Positions 18,182 to 64,000 of a stretch of 64,000 bases of DNA are shown here, piece by piece; the stretch's first letter is position 1; each line of letters begins with the position of its first letter. The notes under the pieces were generated by a model that was given only the letters and a program-made list of their open reading frames with translations, ran no database searches and was not told the origin of the DNA. The position numbers were made by a program, and so were the translations under genes. The stretch comes from Roseateles sp. SL47 (GTDB lineage Bacteria; Pseudomonadota; Gammaproteobacteria; Burkholderiales; Burkholderiaceae_C). The stretch is from the NCBI RefSeq assembly GCF_026625885.1, contig NZ_CP113068.1:4650001-4714000 (forward strand), written 5' to 3'.

Positions 18182-18258
18182 TGGCGGAGTGGACGGGGCT
18201 CGAACCCGCGACCCCCGGCGTGACAGGCCGGTATTCTAACCAACTGAACTACCACTCC
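18182..18258 (-). tRNA. tRNA-Asp (GTC), copy 1
   Basis: A full cloverleaf read on the minus strand: acceptor GGAGTGG/CCACTCC, anticodon loop with GTC in CCTGTCACG, T-arm GGTTCGAGCC, and an encoded CCA. It is identical to the copy at 18657-18733 and is the last gene of the tRNA operon. Confidence 0.97.
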
Positions 18259-18381
18259 AGATTCAAGGCCGCTTATGGTGCCGTTCAGCACTGTTCTGTT
18301 GCCTCAATCCTTCGGACAAGTTGCGCCGCGAATGCAAAGACGCTCTGCGTCTTCACTTCACGAGCCAAGCCTTGTCAAACT

Positions 18382-18457
18382 TGGCGTCCCCTAGGGGATT
18401 CGAACCCCTGTTACAACCGTGAAAGGGTCGTGTCCTAGGCCTCTAGACGAAGGGGAC
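18382..18457 (-). tRNA. tRNA-Glu (TTC), copy 1
   Basis: Acceptor GTCCCCT/AGGGGAC, anticodon TTC in CCTTTCACG, T-arm GGTTCGAATCC, encoded CCA. It is identical to the copy at 18949-19024. gltX, which charges this tRNA, lies 1.1 kb upstream on the same strand. Confidence 0.97.
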
Positions 18458-18504
18458 TTAACTCTTTCTGTGCTACCGCTCTCGCGTCAGCCACCAAGAA
18501 AACT

Positions 18505-18580
<76 letters not shown>

Positions 18581-18656
18581 AAATGCTTTCTCACAGTGCT
18601 TGCGCCCTGCTTCGCATCCGTGGACCAACTCGAGCCCAGTAGCAAAGATCAATTGT

Positions 18657-18733
18657 TGGCGGAGTGGACGGGGCTCGAACCCGCGACCCCCGGCGTGACA
18701 GGCCGGTATTCTAACCAACTGAACTACCACTCC
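18657..18733 (-). tRNA. tRNA-Asp (GTC), copy 2
   Basis: The same sequence as copy 1 including the encoded CCA. It is separated by 76 nt from tRNA-Ala copy 1 downstream and by a 215-nt AT-rich spacer from tRNA-Glu copy 2 upstream. Confidence 0.97.
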
Positions 18734-18948
18734 AGATACGCCGATGATTTGTTTGCACTCATCATCATTGCATCAATTACTTCATACTACTTTCGCGGTA
18801 CTTCGTAATATCTCTTCAACTCACTGCATTGCAATCGCACTGCAGTCAATTTCGACGTTTTCGTTACTATACCAGAGTTTTTGTTTGATTCTTTCGAACT
18901 ATCGAATTCATCAGCAAATTCTTTGGTCAATAACCAAGCACATCAACT

Positions 18949-19024
18949 TGGCGTCCCCTAGGGGATTCGAACCCCTGTTACAACCGTGAAAGGGTCGTGT
19001 CCTAGGCCTCTAGACGAAGGGGAC
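18949..19024 (-). tRNA. tRNA-Glu (TTC), copy 2
   Basis: The same sequence as copy 1 (anticodon TTC, encoded CCA). It lies 38 nt downstream of tRNA-Ala copy 2. Confidence 0.97.
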
Positions 19025-19062
19025 TAAACCTTCTTCTCTTGAACCGCGCGCCACCTAGAATT

Positions 19063-19138
<76 letters not shown>

Positions 19139-47940: not shown

Positions 47941-48372
47941 TTATTGGAAGGCCTTTGAGTCGAAGTCTTGCTCGGCCGACAGTTGAAGCACGACCTGAGC
48001 CTCGGCATAGGGCGCTAGGCGGCCAGCGCTGGCCTGCGGCTTGACGATGAGCTTTCGCCCGCTCACCCACCCCTCACCTTGGTAAGTGGGGCGGGCCGGT
48101 TGCTCCGTGAGTTGCTCTTCATCCGATGCATGACGGATCTTGAACCAGCCGTTTCGCGACGCTGTCACCTCAGCTCGAACACGAACTCTTGCCCCATCCA
48201 CCGGGTCCACCCAGACAGGTGGCAATCGCCCCAACACCCGCGATTGCAGCGACGGCTCAGCACGCACATTGAGTCCTGCGGGATCGGTCTCATCGACAAA
48301 TGCGACGATGGAACAGTGATCCGCCGTCTGCGTGGACGCAGATGCATCACCAGTTGAGATCGCTGCAAGTCC
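47941..48372 (-). pseudogene. 5'-truncated SH3-domain protein gene
   Basis: In this frame the sequence reads LAAISTGDASASTQTADHCS, then the SH3 core GLNVRAEPSLQSRVLGRLPP. It continues to NGWFKIRHA and GWVSGRKLIVKPQAS. This is a bacterial SH3-type periplasmic protein that is complete at its C-terminus. The upstream end looks like the last part of a signal peptide with no hydrophobic core and no start codon before it. Instead the frame runs, out of phase, into the 3' end of a histidine kinase gene. I read this as a gene that lost its start in a deletion. A GTG at 48267 could give a short product without export signal. The left limit is the stop codon; the right limit is approximate. Confidence 0.65.
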
Positions 48373-50945
48373 CGACGCAGGAGCGTCGCCAGATCCAGGG
48401 TGGGGCGGCCTCCGCGAACCCCCAGCAGTTGCTCCCGCGTTTCCTCCACCACCCTTTCGGCTCGCTCCAGGGACTGCTCCACCTTCAATCTCACCGGGTG
48501 GGCACTGTCCAGTCCTTTGAGGCTCTTCTGGATGTGCAACACCATGGCCACGATGCTCTGGAGCAGGCTGTCATGCAGGTCACGGGCGATGCTCTCACGC
48601 TCCTTGAGCTTGACCTCCAGGCGTAATTCCGAATGACGCAGCAACCACCCGATGCGGGTGCGGTAGATCAGGGTGGCGGCCAGCAGCACCAGCAGCCCCA
48701 CACAGATGCGGAACCACCCGGTTTGATGCCACGCAGGCCGCACCTCCAGCGCCACTGCCGCCGATTGGGCCTCGCTCCACGGCTGTCGAGGGGTCGCGGC
48801 CTGCACTTTCAGTTGGTAATGCCCGGGTGCCAAGGCACCGAATGCGAAGCGCCGATGAGTGCCGAGCGGCGTCCAATCCTTGTCCAGCCCTTCGATCATC
48901 ACGCGAAACTGCGTGGCGACGGCGTTGCGCAGATCGGTGCCGGCAAACACCATGCGAATCTGCTGTTCCGGTGATTCGACCACGAGGCGGTCCGGCGGAA
49001 ACACCGGCGTGTCATCCACCGAGGCCTGAATCACCAGCGGACGCAGCGGTATGCGGGCTTGCGGCAATTGGTCCGGATCCACCCAGTAGAGGCTGCCCGC
49101 CCGCATGATCCACAGCCGGCCAGTCACGTCCTGCACCAGCGAAGGAAAATTCCGATTCGGGTGCAAGCCGCCATGAACGCCGTCCAGTGGGCCAAAACGT
49201 TCCCTAAGCACGGGGTGGTCCGGCGCGTTCATCCACGTGGACAAGGCGGAGGCGGAAATACGGATCAGGTCGTTCGCTTCATTGAGCCACAGCGCGCCAT
49301 CGGGCGATTCAACGATGCCGGTCACACGCCCCAAGTGGTCGCCGTCCAGAACCAGTTCGGTGGCTTGGCCATGCCGCCACAGCAGCACACCCCGGTCGGC
49401 GCCGATCCATAGATGGTCACCCTTGGCATGGAGCGCCAGCAGACGCCCTCGCGCATCGCCGGGTAGCGTCGCCGCTTGAGCGACCCCGTTGTTGACCAGC
49501 ATCAGGCGGCCATCTTCAAAGCCAACAGCAAGGCCTGTGGGTGTGGGGGTGAGGACGGTGCTGGCGCCGCTGAGCAAGGGGTCCGTGACGGCGCTCCAGG
49601 CAGCGCCATCCCAGATCCACAGCCCCCCATCGTGCAGGCTGATCCACAAACGACCGTCCGGGCTATCGGCCATCGACTGCACCAAACGGGTCCGGGCCGC
49701 TTCCGGCATAGGCGTCAGTTGCCGGCTGGAATCCCCTTCCAGTTGCCAGACCCGCTCATAGCCCCCCACATAGAGCCGACCATCGCGGGCGTGCAACGCC
49801 GAGCTGCTGCCATTGAGCGCGATCTCGCGATCCCCGCGGGTGTGATGCAGGCTCAGATCGGGGCGAATCAGAAAGGGCGGCAAGTTCTGACGGGTGACCC
49901 ACACCCCGCCGCACTTGGCGACCATCATGGCCCCACTTTGGCGCCCAGGCACAGCCAGAGGGTGGACAGCGACACTGCTGAATCGATCCAGGCCGATGGT
50001 CGTGCCGGCCCACACATTGCCTTGATGGTCATCGATGAGATCGAACACCACGCTGCCGCTCATACCGGCTTCCCGGTCGAAGCGCTGGGGCTCCAACGGC
50101 TTGGTGGCATCAAAAACGTCGGGCACCCATTGAACGCCGCCCGGGACGTAGCTGGCCCAAAGATCGCCTCGGGTGTCGAGCAGAAAGGAGTTGGGCACCT
50201 TCAAGGGAAGCTGGCGCTTGTGCTGGATGACACCCTCTCGATCGACCTGCACCAACTCCCCGTTGGACATCCACATCACCCGTCCGCCGTCGGGCAGCAG
50301 GCGGACATCGGCAACGCCGTTGAAGGTCGGGGCCGGCTGCGCCGGGCTCCCGAGCGAGGGCGCCTGGAACCAGTGCCCATCTTCGGTGTGGAGCACAAGC
50401 GGGCCTCGATCCTGGGCCAGCACGACATCAACAAACCGACGCCCCACCAGGGGACCAAAGTCCCACTTCACCCAGCGCTGCCCGTCCTGCCAGTAGACAC
50501 CGGCCAAGGTGGGCAAGAGCACCGTGCCTTGGAAGCTTTTGAAGCCCATGCCACGGGCGATCGGCAGCCCCGATTCGGGGCCATAGTGGACGGTTTGGTT
50601 GGTGGAGGGAAAGTAATGCGCAACACCGTGCGAGCGGTAGGCCACCATCAACGAACCGTCCGGCAGCATCAACACGTCCGACAGGTTCTGCGGTAGCGCG
50701 GGATTGGCGGGTGCCAGGCTGACCGAATGGAAGTTCTCGCCATCGAAGCGCACCAGGCCGCGATCTGTGGCCAACCAGAGCAGGCCCTCCGGTGATTGGG
50801 CGATTGCGGACACGTCGCCAGGCGCGCCGCGCGTGTCGGTCCATGCGAAGTGTTCGATATGCCGCTGGCCAAACGCCGGGAGGGCCCAGACGAACAGGGC
50901 GAGAACACCGGCGACAAGCTGGGCTGTGATGCGGCGTCGCCTCAT
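48165..50945 (-). pseudogene. Two-component sensor kinase lacking its ATPase domain (truncated)
   Basis: The 926-codon frame encodes a signal peptide (ITAQLVAGVLALFVWALPAFG) and a two-component propeller sensor (repeats such as GLLWLATDRGLVRFD, GNVWAGTTIGLDRF). A Y_Y_Y-type domain follows, then a membrane segment (WFRICVGLLVLLAATLIY) and the HisKA_3 dimerisation helix with the phosphoacceptor His in ESIARDLHDSLLQSIVAMVLH. The HATPase_c domain, which should follow for about 100 residues, is absent. After LLGVRGGRPTLDLATLLRRD the frame enters the neighbouring SH3 gene out of phase and stops after an Arg-rich nonsense tail. No partner response regulator is in the window. As read, the protein could not autophosphorylate. 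Confidence 0.75.
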
Positions 50946-58979: not shown

Positions 58980-59645
58980 ATGTCGTCCCTGCCCTCGGCG
59001 ATGTCGTCCCCGCTAGCCCCACGCGCCCTCTATGAAGAGGTGGCGGAGCGCCTGCGTCAGCGCATCTTCAACCGGGAGCTGGAACCGGGCAGCTGGATTG
59101 ACGAGCTGAAGCTCTGCGCGGAGCTCGGCATCAGCCGCACGCCCCTGCGTGAAGCGCTGAAGGTGCTGGCCAGCGAAGGTCTGGTGACGATGCGGGTGCG
59201 ACGTGGGGCCTACGTCACCGAAATGTCCGAGCGCGACGTGCGCGAGGCCTATCAGCTGCTCTCACTGCTGGAGAGCGACGCCGCCGCCCAGGTGGCCCGC
59301 CATGGCTCGGACGCCGATCTGGCCGAGTTGGCCACCCTGCATGAGGCACTCGAAGCCTCCCTGCCGGACCGCGAGCAGTTTTTCGCCGCCAATGAGCGCT
59401 TCCACCTGCGCATCATTGAGCTGGACGGCAACCGTTGGCGCTTGCAATTCATCACCGACCTTCGACGCGTGATGAAACTCAACCGCCACCATTCCCTCTT
59501 TATGCAGGGCCGCCTGCAGGACTCGCTGCAGGAACACCGCGACATTCTTCACGCTTTGTTGCAACGTGACCCCGACACTGTCGCTCGGCTGATGCGTTTG
59601 CACTTCGAGCACGGGCTTCAAGCCACCGGCCATCGCGTGAACTGA
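58980..59645 (+). CDS. GntR-family regulator with FCD domain
   Basis: The 221-residue protein has a GntR winged helix (ALYEEVAERLRQRIFNRELEPG, then ELGISRTPLREALKVLASEGLV) and an all-helical FCD effector domain (FAANERFHLRIIELDGNRW, HRDILHALLQRDPDTVARLM) with the metal-type His residues of the family. Start: the ATG at 58980 or that at 59001; neither has a clear Shine-Dalgarno. TATAGAT at 58973-58979 could be a -10 and hints at a very short leader. It is divergent from the propionate module, so it probably regulates propionyl-CoA degradation, perhaps responding to a pathway acid; this is inference. Confidence 0.88.
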   Translation: MSSLPSAMSSPLAPRALYEEVAERLRQRIFNRELEPGSWIDELKLCAELGISRTPLREALKVLASEGLVTMRVRRGAYVTEMSERDVREAYQLLSLLESDAAAQVARHGSDADLAELATLHEALEASLPDREQFFAANERFHLRIIELDGNRWRLQFITDLRRVMKLNRHHSLFMQGRLQDSLQEHRDILHALLQRDPDTVARLMRLHFEHGLQATGHRVN

Positions 59646-60056
59646 TCCCCAAACTCACCGCGTTCATGTCGGCGGTGACATTGATCAAAGCCGATGTTCA
59701 TCTACTTGAATGTTTCGGGGTGACATGAGAAATCTGTCACGCCGCGCCCCCTGGGGCGCGCCTCATCGCTGCAGCAACCGCCTGCCAGGCCGATGAATAC
59801 GTGCTTAGGCAAGCATCACCACCCCCCGCATCCATGGGCTTTACGCGCCCCGCGTAACTGTGAACTGAGGCCGACTAGTGCGCCTTTTGTTTGCTTCCAC
59901 GTAAAGCCATGAGCCATACCATTTCTGAGTTGGCTCAAGTTTGTCAATTCGTGTCCGAAAACCGAATGACGGGAGCCGGTCGCTCGACCCCCACCTGCAG
60001 TTAGATCGACAACGAGCGCCTATGGGCGCACCGCCCATAGTCACGGAGCTTCAAAG
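59646..60056. other. 411-nt gap upstream of the giant repeat gene
   Basis: No gene seen. It holds a GC hairpin GCGCCCC/GGGGCGC (about 59742-59761) that may end gntR. A spaced inverted repeat ATGG(G)CTTTACG / CGTAAAGCCAT (59834-59845 and 59900-59910) encloses 54 bp. TTGTCA at 59941 is a weak -35 candidate. The last 40 nt hold the hairpin before the giant gene. Confidence 0.5.
60020..60040 (+). promoter_or_regulatory. Leader hairpin next to the giant gene ribosome-binding site
   Basis: Arms CTATGGGC and GCCCATAG (8-bp perfect) close loop GCACC. The hairpin ends 4 nt before the Shine-Dalgarno GGAG (60045-60048), which is 8 nt from the ATG. It could slow or gate translation, or protect the 5' end of a very long mRNA. 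Confidence 0.55.
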
Positions 60057-63000
60057 ATGGCATCGCTCATTACCAACCTGTCCACCGACCAGATTCAGAC
60101 GCTGACGTCCGCCACGCTCGCGCGCCTGACCAGTGAGGACTGGGCCGCGTTCACCACCGATCAGTTCCAGGCACTGACCACCGACCAATTTGCGTCGCTG
60201 GGCACCAAGGCCGTGTCCTTGTTCACGACGGCCAACATTGCGGTCATCGAATCCGATGACCTGCGGGCCCTGAGCACTGCGGCCGTCCGGACACTGACCA
60301 CCGAACAGCTGAATGCGCTGGGCTCGGACCAGTTCGGCGCCATGACCACGCGCCAGGTCGGCTCGCTGACCACACAACAGGTGCGGGGCCTGGAGTCTGA
60401 TGACCTGAATGCGTTGGGCTCCGACCAGATTCGCTCGCTGAGCAGCCAACAGGTGGCCGCCATCTCCACCGCGCTGATCAGCACGCTCGCTTCCGATGAC
60501 CTGCAGGCCCTGAAGACCGACCAGATCCGCGCCCTGAGTTCCTCGCAGGTCGCCGCCATCTCGACCGACGGCGTGGCCGCCCTGACCACTCAGCAGGCTG
60601 CTTCGATTTCCAGCACCCAGGCAGCGGCCCTGAATTCCGACCAGGCCGCCGCGCTGACCTCGGACGCCGTCAAGGCCCTGAGCACCGCCGCCGTCCATGC
60701 GCTGGGCACCGACCAGGTCGGGGCGCTTGATTCCAATCAGGTGGCCGCGCTGACCACCCAGCAGATCGGGGCGCTGACCACGGCGCAGATCCGCCAGCTC
60801 AGCAGTGACGACATCTCGGCGCTGGACACCACCCAGATCCGTTCCATCACCACCCAGCAGATCGCTGCCCTGAGCACCGACCAGATCGGTGGCCTGGCCA
60901 GCGAGGATGTCCAGGCGCTGTCCACCGCCCAGGTGCGCGCCCTCAGCTCCAGCCAACTGGGCGCCCTCACCTCCGATTCCATCGAGGCGATGAGCTCCAG
61001 CCAGATCGGCGCCCTCACCTCCACCCAGGCCAAGGGCCTGAGCACCGACCAGATCGCCGCGATCAGCTCGGAAGACATCAAGGCCATCTCCACCGCCACG
61101 CTGCGTTCACTGACCACTGACCAGGTGCAGGCCCTGGGCTCGGACCAGGTGGCGGCGATGACCTCCACACAAGTCGGTTCGCTGACCACCGCCCAGGTGC
61201 AGGTGCTCTCCACCGATGAACTGAATGCGCTGGACAGCAGCCAGATCCGCGCCCTGGGCACCGCCCAGATCGCCGCGCTCTCCACCGACCAGGTGCAGGG
61301 CATGGAAAGCGCCGACGTGCAGGCGCTGACCACCGGCCAGATTGCTGCCCTCAGCTCCGCCCAGGTGGCGGCGCTGTCCACCGACGCCATCGTGGCCCTG
61401 ACTTCGGGCCAGGTCGCGTCGCTGACCAGCAAGCAGTTGCTGGGCCTGACCACCGACCAGGTGGTCGCGATTGAATCCGGCGACCTGCGCGCCATGTCCA
61501 CGAATGCCCTGCGTTCGTTGACCACCGCCCAGTTTGATGCCCTGAATTCCGACCAGGTCGGCGCGCTGACCACCCAGCAGGTGGCTGCCCTGACCACTGG
61601 TCAGGTGGCCGCCATGTCCACCGACGACCTCAATGCCCTGGGCACCGGCCAGATCCGCGCCCTGGGCACCGCCCAGGTGGCCGCGCTGACGACCGACCAG
61701 GTCCACGGCATGGAAAGTGCCGACCTGCAGGCCCTGAGCACCGGTCAGGTCCAGGCCCTCAGCTCGACCCAGATGGCCGCGCTGACGACCGACAACGTCG
61801 CCGCGCTGACCTCGGCCCAGGTGGCCACCCTGAGCACCAAGCAGATCTCCGGCCTGACCACCGACCAGGTGGCCGCCATTGAAACCGGTGACCTGCGCGC
61901 CCTGTCCACCGGCGCCATCCGCTCGCTGACCACCGACCAGTTCAATGCCCTGGGCACCGACCAGGTCCAGGCCCTGAGCACCGGCCAGGTGGCGGCGCTG
62001 ACCACCGCCCAGGTGGCCGCGATGTCCAGCGACGACCTGAATGCCCTGGGCAGCTCGCAGATCCGTGCGCTGGGCACCGGCCAGATCGCGGCCCTGACGA
62101 CCGAACAGGTCCAAGGCATGGAAAGCGCCGATGTGCAGGCGCTGACCACCAACCAGGTCGCCGCCCTCAGCTCCACCCAGATGGGTGCGCTGTCCACCGA
62201 GAACATCGCCGCCCTGAGCTCCACCCAGGTCGCGGCGCTGAGCACCAAGCAGATTTCCGGCCTGTCCACCGACCAGGTGGCCGCCATCGAGACGGCCGAC
62301 CTGCGTGCCCTCTCCACCGGCGCCATCCGCTCGCTGACCACCGACCAGTTCGACGCCTTGGGCTCTGACCAGGTCGCCGCCCTGACAACCGGCCAGATTG
62401 CTGCGCTGACCACCGGCCAGGTGGCCGCCATGTCCAGCGACGATCTGAATGCGCTGGGCAGCGCGCAGATCCGCGCCCTGGGCACTGCCCAGATCGCCGC
62501 GCTGACGACTGACCAGATCCACAACATGACCAGCGAGGATGTTCAGGCCCTGACCACCGCGCAGGTGCAGGCCCTGGGCTCGGCACAGATCGCCGCGCTG
62601 GCCACCGACAACATCGCCGCGCTGTCCTCCTCGCAGGTGGCCGCGCTCGGCACCAAGCAGGCCGCCGGCCTGACGACCGACCAGATCGGCGCCATCGAAA
62701 CCGGCGACCTGAAGGCCCTGACCACCAACGTCATCCGCTCGCTGGACAGCAGCCAGCTGGATGCCCTGGGTTCCGACCAGGTGGCGGCACTCAATACCGC
62801 CCAGGTGGCGGCGCTGAGCACCACCCAGGTCAGCAATCTCTCCAGCGATGACCTCAACGCCCTGACCAGCGGCCAGATCAAGGCCCTGTCCACCGCGCAG
62901 GTCGCCGCGCTGACCACCGCCCAGGTCAGCACCATGACCAGCGAGGATGTGCAGGCGCTGAGCACCAACCAGATTGCGGCCCTGAGCTCCGCCCAGGTCG

Positions 63001-64000
63001 GCGCCCTGTCCACCGACAACATCGCCGCACTGAGCTCGTCCCAGATCGCTCCGCTGAACACCAAGCAGGTGGGGGGCCTGACGACCGACCAGGTCGGCGC
63101 CATCGAAACCGTGGATGTGAAGGCCCTGAGCACGCAGGCCCTGCGCGCCCTGACGACCGACCAGATCGGCGCCCTCACCTCCGACCAGGTGGCTGCGCTG
63201 ACGACCGCCCAGGTGGCGGCCCTGAGCACCGCGCAAGTGGTGGCCCTGGGCAGTGAAGACCTCAATGCGCTGGGCACCGCCCAGATCCGCGCCCTGGGTA
63301 CCGCCCAGATCGCCGCGCTGACGACCGATCAGGTCCATGGCATGGAAAGCGCCGACGTCCAGGCGCTGACCAGCGGCCAGGTCGCGGCCCTCAGCTCCAC
63401 GCAGATTGGCGCTCTCTCCACCGACAACGTCGCGGCCCTGACCTCGACGCAGGTCGGCGCGCTGACCAGCAAGCAAGCGCTGGGTCTGACGACCGACCAG
63501 ATCGCCGCCATCGAAACCGGCGACCTCAAGGCCCTGTCCACCACCGCCCTGCGCGCCCTGGACAGCAGCCAGCTGGATGCCCTGGGTTCCGACCAGATCG
63601 CCGCCCTGAGCACGCAGCAGGTCGCGGCGCTGAGCACCAGCCAGGTGTCGACGCTGTCCAGCGACGACCTGAACGCCCTGACCAGCGCTCAGATCAAGGC
63701 CCTGAGCACCGCCCAGGTGGCTGCACTGACAACCGGCCAGGTCAGCACCATGACCAGCGACGACGTCGCGGCGCTGACCACCAATCAACTGCAGGCCATG
63801 GGCTCCGCCCAGATCGGCGCGCTGAGCACCGACGCCATCGTCGCCCTGGGCTCCACCCAGATCGGCTCGCTGACCACCAAGCAGGTGGCTGGCCTGACGA
63901 CCGACCAGATGGCCGCCATTGAAACCGGCGACCTGCGAGCCCTGAACACCACCGCCCTGCGCTCGCTGACTTCCGACCAGCTCAATGCCCTGGGCTCCGA
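60057..64000 (+). CDS. Giant octapeptide-repeat protein with 136-residue higher-order repeat (cut by window end)
   Basis: The frame runs from ATG 60057 (GGAG 8 nt upstream) to the window end with no stop: more than 1,314 codons. After the first residues (MASLITNLSTDQIQTLTSAT) the whole chain is octapeptides of the form x-A-L-[ST]-[ST]-x-Q-[VI]. Seventeen octapeptides form a 136-residue (408-bp) super-unit. Its landmark codon recurs at 60390, 60798, 61206, 61614, 62022, 62430, 62838, 63246 and 63654, exactly 408 apart. In each super-unit octads 1, 5 and 12 are acidic, as in MSSDDL, MESADV and IETGDL. I noticed no Cys or Tyr, one Trp, near the N-terminus, and one Pro. No signal peptide or membrane segment is visible. 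The function is unknown; a long surface or matrix solenoid is possible, but the C-terminus is needed to decide. Confidence 0.85.
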   Translation, partial: MASLITNLSTDQIQTLTSATLARLTSEDWAAFTTDQFQALTTDQFASLGTKAVSLFTTANIAVIESDDLRALSTAAVRTLTTEQLNALGSDQFGAMTTRQVGSLTTQQVRGLESDDLNALGSDQIRSLSSQQVAAISTALISTLASDDLQALKTDQIRALSSSQVAAISTDGVAALTTQQAASISSTQAAALNSDQAAALTSDAVKALSTAAVHALGTDQVGALDSNQVAALTTQQIGALTTAQIRQLSSDDISALDTTQIRSITTQQIAALSTDQIGGLASEDVQALSTAQVRALSSSQLGALTSDSIEAMSSSQIGALTSTQAKGLSTDQIAAISSEDIKAISTATLRSLTTDQVQALGSDQVAAMTSTQVGSLTTAQVQVLSTDELNALDSSQIRALGTAQIAALSTDQVQGMESADVQALTTGQIAALSSAQVAALSTDAIVALTSGQVASLTSKQLLGLTTDQVVAIESGDLRAMSTNALRSLTTAQFDALNSDQVGALTTQQVAALTTGQVAAMSTDDLNALGTGQIRALGTAQVAALTTDQVHGMESADLQALSTGQVQALSSTQMAALTTDNVAALTSAQVATLSTKQISGLTTDQVAAIETGDLRALSTGAIRSLTTDQFNALGTDQVQALSTGQVAALTTAQVAAMSSDDLNALGSSQIRALGTGQIAALTTEQVQGMESADVQALTTNQVAALSSTQMGALSTENIAALSSTQVAALSTKQISGLSTDQVAAIETADLRALSTGAIRSLTTDQFDALGSDQVAALTTGQIAALTTGQVAAMSSDDLNALGSAQIRALGTAQIAALTTDQIHNMTSEDVQALTTAQVQALGSAQIAALATDNIAALSSSQVAALGTKQAAGLTTDQIGAIETGDLKALTTNVIRSLDSSQLDALGSDQVAALNTAQVAALSTTQVSNLSSDDLNALTSGQIKALSTAQVAALTTAQVSTMTSEDVQALSTNQIAALSSAQVGALSTDNIAALSSSQIAPLNTKQVGGLTTDQVGAIETVDVKALSTQALRALTTDQIGALTSDQVAALTTAQVAALSTAQVVALGSEDLNALGTAQIRALGTAQIAALTTDQVHGMESADVQALTSGQVAALSSTQIGALSTDNVAALTSTQVGALTSKQALGLTTDQIAAIETGDLKALSTTALRALDSSQLDALGSDQIAALSTQQVAALSTSQVSTLSSDDLNALTSAQIKALSTAQVAALTTGQVSTMTSDDVAALTTNQLQAMGSAQIGALSTDAIVALGSTQIGSLTTKQVAGLTTDQMAAIETGDLRALNTTALRSLTSDQLNALGS
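60384..64000 (+). repeat. 408-bp tandem higher-order repeat (17 x 24 bp)
   Basis: Nearly nine in-register copies of a 408-bp unit from 60384 to the window end, each made of 17 diverged 24-bp units. The segment 60057-60383 fits as most of another, partial copy. There is no length change between copies. Central copies (around 61614-62838) are more alike than the first ones. Confidence 0.9.

Follow-up and report, generated by a model that had tools for sequence, protein, structure and literature searches.

Gene A, which begins at position 60057 of a 64,000-nucleotide stretch of the Roseateles sp. SL47 genome (contig NZ_CP113068.1, positions 4,650,001 to 4,714,000; the whole stretch is called the window below), is a giant repeat gene that is both real and highly ordered; it belongs to a named family, the ALTTAQ repeat, for which we could find no function in print. 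New here are the association of this family with an OGT-like GT41 enzyme and a type I secretion system (T1SS), a conserved hydroxyl at one position of the repeat, and the constant length of the repeat array. We judge it reasonably probable that the product of gene A (hereafter A) is a type I-secreted, O-glycosylated, screw-shaped stalk that resembles HMW1A with its partner HMW1C but leaves the cell by another export route.

Repeat architecture and array length

The features on which the argument rests are as follows.

60057..64000 (+): gene A within the window, 1314 codons from the ATG at 60057; stop at 69509 in genome-continued coordinates
60399..63680 (+): nine landmark motifs, [D/E][D/E]L[N/S]AL or DDISAL, starting at 60399, 60807 ... 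63663, with an exact spacing of 408 bp
61689..62912 (+): three super-units (residues 545-952) modeled with AlphaFold2
69864-74312, genome-continued coordinates: gene B, tandem paralog of A, 1482 residues

Followed to its stop codon, the open reading frame (ORF) of gene A runs past the window end without interruption, meets neither a stop nor a frameshift just beyond it, and encodes 3150 residues. The array begins at residue 8 and comprises about 360 octapeptides (octads) grouped in super-units of 136 residues, or 17 octads. The octad consensus, from position 0 to position 7, is L-T-T-D-Q-V-A-A; of 359 octads, 356 have Ser/Thr at position 2 and 247 have Gln at position 4. The original prediction of octapeptides nested in a 136-residue super-unit is borne out by DNA identity, which peaks at both corresponding lags: 0.553 at lag 24 (vs 0.239 and 0.245 at lags 23 and 25) and 0.719 at lag 408 (vs 0.570 +- 0.008, maximum 0.594, when the 24-bp units were shuffled 500 times). 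Because the latter value exceeds that of every shuffle, the super-unit goes far beyond octad periodicity. The nine landmarks do lie exactly 408 bp apart in the window, as had been claimed; beyond it their spacing remains 136 residues, interrupted twice by a unit of 192 residues (24 octads). The reported scarcity of Pro, Cys and aromatic residues likewise holds over the 2907-residue array, which has no Cys, one Pro, no Tyr, four Trp and 23 Phe, and in which Ser and Thr number 746.

The repeat had been thought undescribed, but it is already curated in Pfam as PF20080, which A matches with 2545.9 bits (E 0) and B with 692.7 bits, at a curated cut-off of 26.4. That entry names the repeat; we came across no description of a function, a super-unit or partner genes for it, and the word ALTTAQ was not found in the literature searched. 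Other above-cut-off Pfam matches on A (CAAP1, Phage_TAC_7, HTH_25 and Sigma70_r4_2) we regard as chance on a low-complexity helical repeat.

From MASLITNL to the C-terminal module, the array of A measures 2907 residues in 13 of 13 complete copies from the genus, which come from 13 assemblies and have pairwise amino-acid identities of 0.79-0.97. This count excludes four copies truncated by contig ends (G004, G007, G010 and L038) and the Pelomonas/Paucibacter arrays of L044-L048, which have ORFs of other lengths. The array of B measures 1244 residues in 13 of 14 copies and 1243 in one. Corresponding units of two species are 83.3% alike, vs 71.4% for two units within one protein, and exact repeats persist in the array (seven repeated 60-mers). 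Since the length is constant and the identity across species exceeds that within a protein, the array has not been expanded, contracted or homogenized. The reason may simply be that diverged units seldom recombine; selection for a fixed length is the bolder explanation. In other lineages, ALTTAQ arrays have different lengths.

Other arrays of the family show further variation. The ALTTAQ genes of Pelomonas sp. Root1237 (L045, L047) seem split into several frames, through what may be sequencing error or decay, and those of Root1217 (L044, L046) are long and open. An ALTTAQ protein of about 4330 residues (L095/G022) has matches every 1158 bp; because this spacing of 386 residues is no multiple of 8, units with small insertions exist.

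Association with GT41 and type I secretion

A GT41 ortholog accompanies the repeat across the family. In a sample of 299 family genomes, the ortholog was found in 57 of the 77 PF20080-positive genomes (E <= 1e-6; weak matches, E 1e-6 to 1e-3, scored negative) and in 0 of the 222 negative ones; the ortholog cut-off, E <= 1.6e-137, was set after a gap between E 1.6e-137 and 3.1e-108 had been seen. The genomes are not independent, so we also give the count by genus, which is 29/41 for positives and 0/100 for negatives. Both places are known in 29 of the 57 genomes: GT41 lies within 9-40 kb of the array in 18, distant on one contig in two and on different contigs in nine (the nearest ALTTAQ place being used where several were given). 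T1SS genes are linked to the array in several relatives, within 40 kb in 18 of the 29 placed genomes, and unlinked in the genome of gene A itself. Among 60 relatives, the ortholog (62-100% identity) occurs in 20 of 21 PF20080-positive and 0 of 39 negative genomes; the exception, G027, has on one contig both its array and, about 4 kb away, a diverged GT41 (38%). The gene order GT41, ATP-binding cassette (ABC) transporter, HlyD and outer-membrane factor (OEP) is kept in 9 of 9 family loci examined (L097, L147-L153 and L166).

In the Roseateles sp. SL47 genome, a single contig of 6.39 Mb, this cluster lies at 5.416-5.423 Mb (L097). Its ABC protein matches TIGR03375 with 788 bits (cut-off 693) and its HlyD matches TIGR01843 with 304 bits (cut-off 209); Pfam gave no C39 match in this ABC protein. 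Its GT41, of the tetratricopeptide (TPR) type, has its catalytic region in common with Xanthomonas XcOGT (2jlb) and human OGT. The E values are 1.4e-76 and 1.2e-72, respectively. We know of no link between either of these enzymes and secreted repeat proteins.

The same partners recur beyond the family. Of 13 genomes outside the family that were read around their ALTTAQ gene, five have GT41 there (Pseudomonas triticifolii, P. asturiensis, G773, G291 and G753) and T1SS genes are present in six (P. triticifolii, P. asturiensis, G773, G291, G175 and G462). In P. triticifolii (L051) and P. asturiensis (L050) a TPR-GT41 (PF13844, E 4.2e-78 in L051) comes next after the ALTTAQ gene, and beyond it lie T1SS genes on the opposite strand. 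G291 has the order ALTTAQ, ABC, HlyD, GT41, GT4; its ABC protein is the only one with a C39 domain, and its GT4, cut by the contig end, is homologous to the GT4 beside B (E 4.8e-33). GT41 lies immediately 3' of the ALTTAQ gene in G773 and G753, and ABC and HlyD genes adjoin the array in G175 and G462, with no GT41 in the stretch read.

The hydroxyl at octad position 2

Position 2 is conserved in a way that position 1 is not. In A, 355 of 360 octads carry Ser/Thr at position 2 in every one of the 13 species, and 72 of the 75 variable octads swap only Ser and Thr; the corresponding figures for position 1 are 180 of 360 and 92 of 230. Across the wider family, Ser/Thr at position 2 has a frequency of 0.65 in ALTTAQ proteins that bear the C-terminal module and of 0.155 in those with two-partner secretion domains; Pro at this position has medians of 0.07 (nine proteins) and 0.405 (14 proteins), respectively. 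As the proteins are related, the p of 8e-5 overstates the contrast between the two groups. Octads in these other proteins were detected by pattern, which may lose or misplace some, and 1/10 and 1/15 proteins were excluded as having too few.

Predicted fold

The AlphaFold2 model of three super-units (408 residues; input alignment of seven rows, all taken from the window) has a mean pLDDT of 96.1, a pTM of 0.83, and 51 helices of 4-6 residues, one per octad. The regular chain of short helices in the original prediction thus stands. Its placement of the helix N-cap at the Thr-Thr pair needs refinement: because DSSP has all 51 helices start at position 2, the model puts the N-cap at position 1, with the conserved Ser/Thr as the next residue. 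The likeness to the hierarchical repeats of ice-nucleation proteins, which had been noted together with the difference in residues, proves purely formal. Those proteins have a beta fold with strand-based repeats, whereas the array model is helical without strands, and A has no ice-nucleation Pfam match; a relationship was therefore rejected.

Among the matches listed in structure searches, those with a Foldseek probability of 1.00 are to the mesothelin superhelix (E from 3.1e-5); no solved structure of equal global shape was among the matches listed. HeliScrew4 (PDB 9zem, 120 residues, solved) has an octad pattern like that of A (E 2.6e-17 by sequence, 6.5e-25 by profile), but is short and, in the alignment, mostly has Pro at position 2, unlike A. 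As 9zem was absent among the matches listed in the structure searches, the likeness is one of sequence. The name HeliScrew was not found in the literature searched.

The octad spectrum of A has its top peak at 3.407 octads (z 45.7 vs shuffled octads), close to 17/5 = 3.400; among the harmonics of the 17-octad unit it ranks first, with others at 5.73, 2.42 and 4.20. In B, in which the 17-octad repeat is faint, the first peak is at 3.373 octads (z 7.4), and for the 24-octad units 24/7 = 3.43. Among 69 ALTTAQ proteins (longest run of each), the best period falls within 3.2-3.6 for 11, where 7.4% (about 5) would be expected from the axis length; the highest mean peak excluding A and B is at 3.39 octads (1.46; next 0.55). 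Judging from these sequence periods, about 3.4 octads may form one superhelical turn, such that units of 17 or 24 octads would close five or seven turns. The case for this turn is moderate, because many other ALTTAQ arrays peak elsewhere (2.0, 5.46).

The C-terminal module

Motifs of type I secretion, VCBS, RTX or anchor type had been proposed as worth seeking at the C-terminus of A, outside the window. There are no RTX nonapeptides (GGxGxD) in A or B, and residues 2909-3076 of A are, by sequence and predicted fold, a homolog of the self-processing module of FrpC (6sjw, 6sjx). The EF-hand-like Ca2+ motifs of FrpC (D462-E474, D499-D511 and D521-E532) are matched in the alignment, suggesting putative Ca2+ binding. 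After the module comes an acidic, Ser/Thr-rich tail ending in PLI; such tails, of low predicted confidence, end in PLI or PLL and are a candidate export signal. Only A and B match the module in their own genome, and the C-terminal region of Roseateles terrae (L031; family Sphaerotilaceae) is 85% identical to that of A.

Proposed mechanism and its alternatives

We propose that A, with its paralog B, forms a giant stalk outside the cell or on its surface: some 360 units of eight residues would wind into a superhelical screw, and the FrpC-module homolog near the C-terminus would bind Ca2+ but not cleave. It would be made without a Sec signal; by reading, its N-terminus carries no signal sequence or other domain. 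OGT-type GT41 enzymes act on Ser/Thr residues in the cytoplasm, and in our proposal the TPR-type GT41 would there decorate the Ser/Thr that opens each mini-helix; the sugar might be extended by the GT4, the DUF5672 protein and a third, transferase-like gene product encoded next to B. A would then leave via the dedicated T1SS clustered with GT41 (LssB-type ABC, HlyD and outer-membrane factor), and calcium would drive its folding outside the cell. The constant array length would fit a spacer or ruler that presents something at a fixed distance. Of these steps, we consider export by the T1SS to be quite likely and glycosylation to be somewhat favored. A bolder picture, of a fixed-length screw (17 octads making five turns of about 3.4) studded with a sugar in nearly every mini-helix and exported by the T1SS as a glycan-coated stalk or ruler, is offered tentatively and is more doubtful than probable.

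The nearest precedent is the HMW1A-HMW1B-HMW1C system of Haemophilus influenzae, likewise a giant exoprotein with a cytoplasmic GT41 "third partner" in the gene neighborhood; HMW1C acts on the giant adhesin in the cytoplasm, before export (PMC3983070). HMW1 uses two-partner secretion and N-linked sequons, and HMW1C has an AAD rather than a TPR domain (PMC3983070); here the associated genes are T1SS genes, the GT41 is of the TPR type, and the array of A has only 11 N-x-S/T. Further, the two-partner secretion domain PF05860 was not listed by Pfam for A or B at E <= 1. A dedicated GT41 partner like that of HMW1-type exoproteins is seen here, by association only. In our proposal A works like HMW1A with HMW1C, yet it belongs neither to that system nor to the self-processing RTX proteins. 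Among the papers listed in literature searches, no title pointed to a T1SS with a GT41 partner or to these proteins; PMC7716237, in the part available, concerns other adhesins.

Several observations weigh against this proposal. The OEP of the genome's own cluster scores only 64 bits, vs the TIGR01844 cut-off of 225; the cluster lies 698 kb from the A-B pair; and another ABC-HlyD pair, which lies at about 4.544-4.548 Mb (L096) and has no GT41, is an alternative exporter candidate. The His of the HTT motif, which has a role in OGT, is Gly in the GT41 of this genome. In the family sample, 20 of the 77 PF20080-positive genomes have no GT41 ortholog, and in 12 of these 20 the only GT41 is a more distant one (E <= 1e-90), of a kind that 28 negatives also have. 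Outside the family, no GT41 was found in the stretch read near the array in 8 of the 13 genomes, save for a weak end fragment in G516; six (G793, G602, G388, G236, G516 and G480) show no complete T1SS and no complete GT41 there. Finally, B, despite sitting at the same locus, keeps Ser/Thr at position 2 across 13 species in no more than 78 of 153 octads, and G753 has an adjacent GT41 with a Ser/Thr frequency of only 0.30 at this position.

These last two observations speak for a screw stalk that is exported by type I secretion without being glycosylated. In such a protein, the position-2 Ser/Thr would serve to start the helix, to keep the chain soluble or to slow its folding until export, and GT41 would modify another protein or a surface glycan. 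Ser/Thr is indeed acceptable as a first helical residue. Yet position 1, the N-cap in the model, varies and position 2 hardly does; the two-partner-secretion arrays use Pro and few Ser/Thr at position 2; and the GT41 ortholog is never found without the repeat in the family sample. We therefore consider an unglycosylated stalk unlikely, though it deserves serious attention.

A passive repetitive filament, whether ice-binding, S-layer-like or sheath-like, with no dedicated modification could account for the extreme regularity and for a hydroxyl that recurs every eight residues. It sits poorly with the strandless array model and the missing ice-nucleation family match, with the GT41-T1SS association, and with an array of constant length whose units are more alike between species than within one protein; we regard it as very improbable.

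The C-terminal homology invites comparison with self-processing RTX exoproteins such as FrpC and ApxIVA, in which the module would clip off and link to another protein. The FrpC reaction is reported to occur at an Asp-Pro bond (PMC7078468). In 47 of 47 pattern-matched ALTTAQ sequences, the residue preceding the module Pro is Thr or Ser, never Asp, and five further sequences judged by eye have four Thr and one Ala. The module of A also differs from that of FrpC in following an octad array without RTX repeats. With neither the Asp-Pro bond nor these repeats, a self-cleaving RTX protein was rejected, and we give this explanation scant chance. That the array is an assembly artefact, a concern raised at the outset, or a relic repeat has a negligible probability, as 12 other assemblies share its 2907-residue length at the identities given above and we found no point in support.

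Genomic surroundings and other features of the window

The surroundings of the A-B pair include the following, with positions beyond 64000 in genome-continued coordinates.

59646..60056 (+): intergenic region 5' of gene A
start 74464: GT4 gene, 3' of B
start 75635: DUF5672 protein gene, 3' of B, after GT4
start 76469: gene for a 325-residue protein, no Pfam match; "transferase-like" from sequence alone

The 5' neighbors of gene A encode a GntR/FCD regulator and, on the opposite strand, methylmalonyl-CoA mutase. Scanned for consensus elements, 59600-60100 showed a single terminator-like hairpin, on the minus strand (59995-59968; 0.4 expected), and no sigma-70-like site; promoter and terminator scans of 60001-74700 found none. 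Opposite the array runs a very long antisense open frame, 61107-64000 (-), of at least 893 residues in the window and 2850 in the genome; such frames probably arise as a side effect of the codon pattern. Of the 60 relatives, 17 have the GT4 that adjoins B, namely 15 of 16 genus members (this genome included), G026 and the repeat-negative G047. PADLOC, to which B, GT41 and GT4 were submitted, gave no match.

Elsewhere in the window, 18182-19138 (-) holds a tRNA-Asp, tRNA-Glu, tRNA-Ala triplet in two tandem copies, with each tRNA pair identical. At 48165-50945 (-) lies a two-component propeller sensor with Reg_prop, Y_Y_Y and HisKA_3 matches and no ATPase-domain match; because its frame stops soon past the histidine region, a truncation or frameshift is possible.

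Distribution and significance

PF20080 occurs in 15 of 15 other genus members and, counting this genome, in 21 of 60 relatives, 6 of 369 class genomes and 28 of 398 phylum genomes. The control genome, Caulobacter vibrioides, also matches it. Three phylum genomes of one family (G516, G480 and G527; f233) have several ALTTAQ genes each, with open frames of up to 6436 residues; the arrays read, in G516 and G480, have a period of two octads, or 16-residue units. Among the matches listed, some ALTTAQ proteins come from Verrucomicrobiota and Chlamydiales assemblies, and others bear two-partner secretion, LysM (Mesorhizobium) or G8 end domains. This spread and the variety of end domains suit a general-purpose stalk.

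If our proposal is true, the ALTTAQ family gains a fold, a route out of the cell and an enzyme that modifies it, and the theme of a giant exoprotein plus GT41 extends from two-partner to type I secretion. The regular scaffold, with several hundred candidate acceptor sites that are nearly identical, would be useful for studies of OGT specificity. Further, because the array keeps its length from species to species, the molecular-ruler idea can be put to a direct test.

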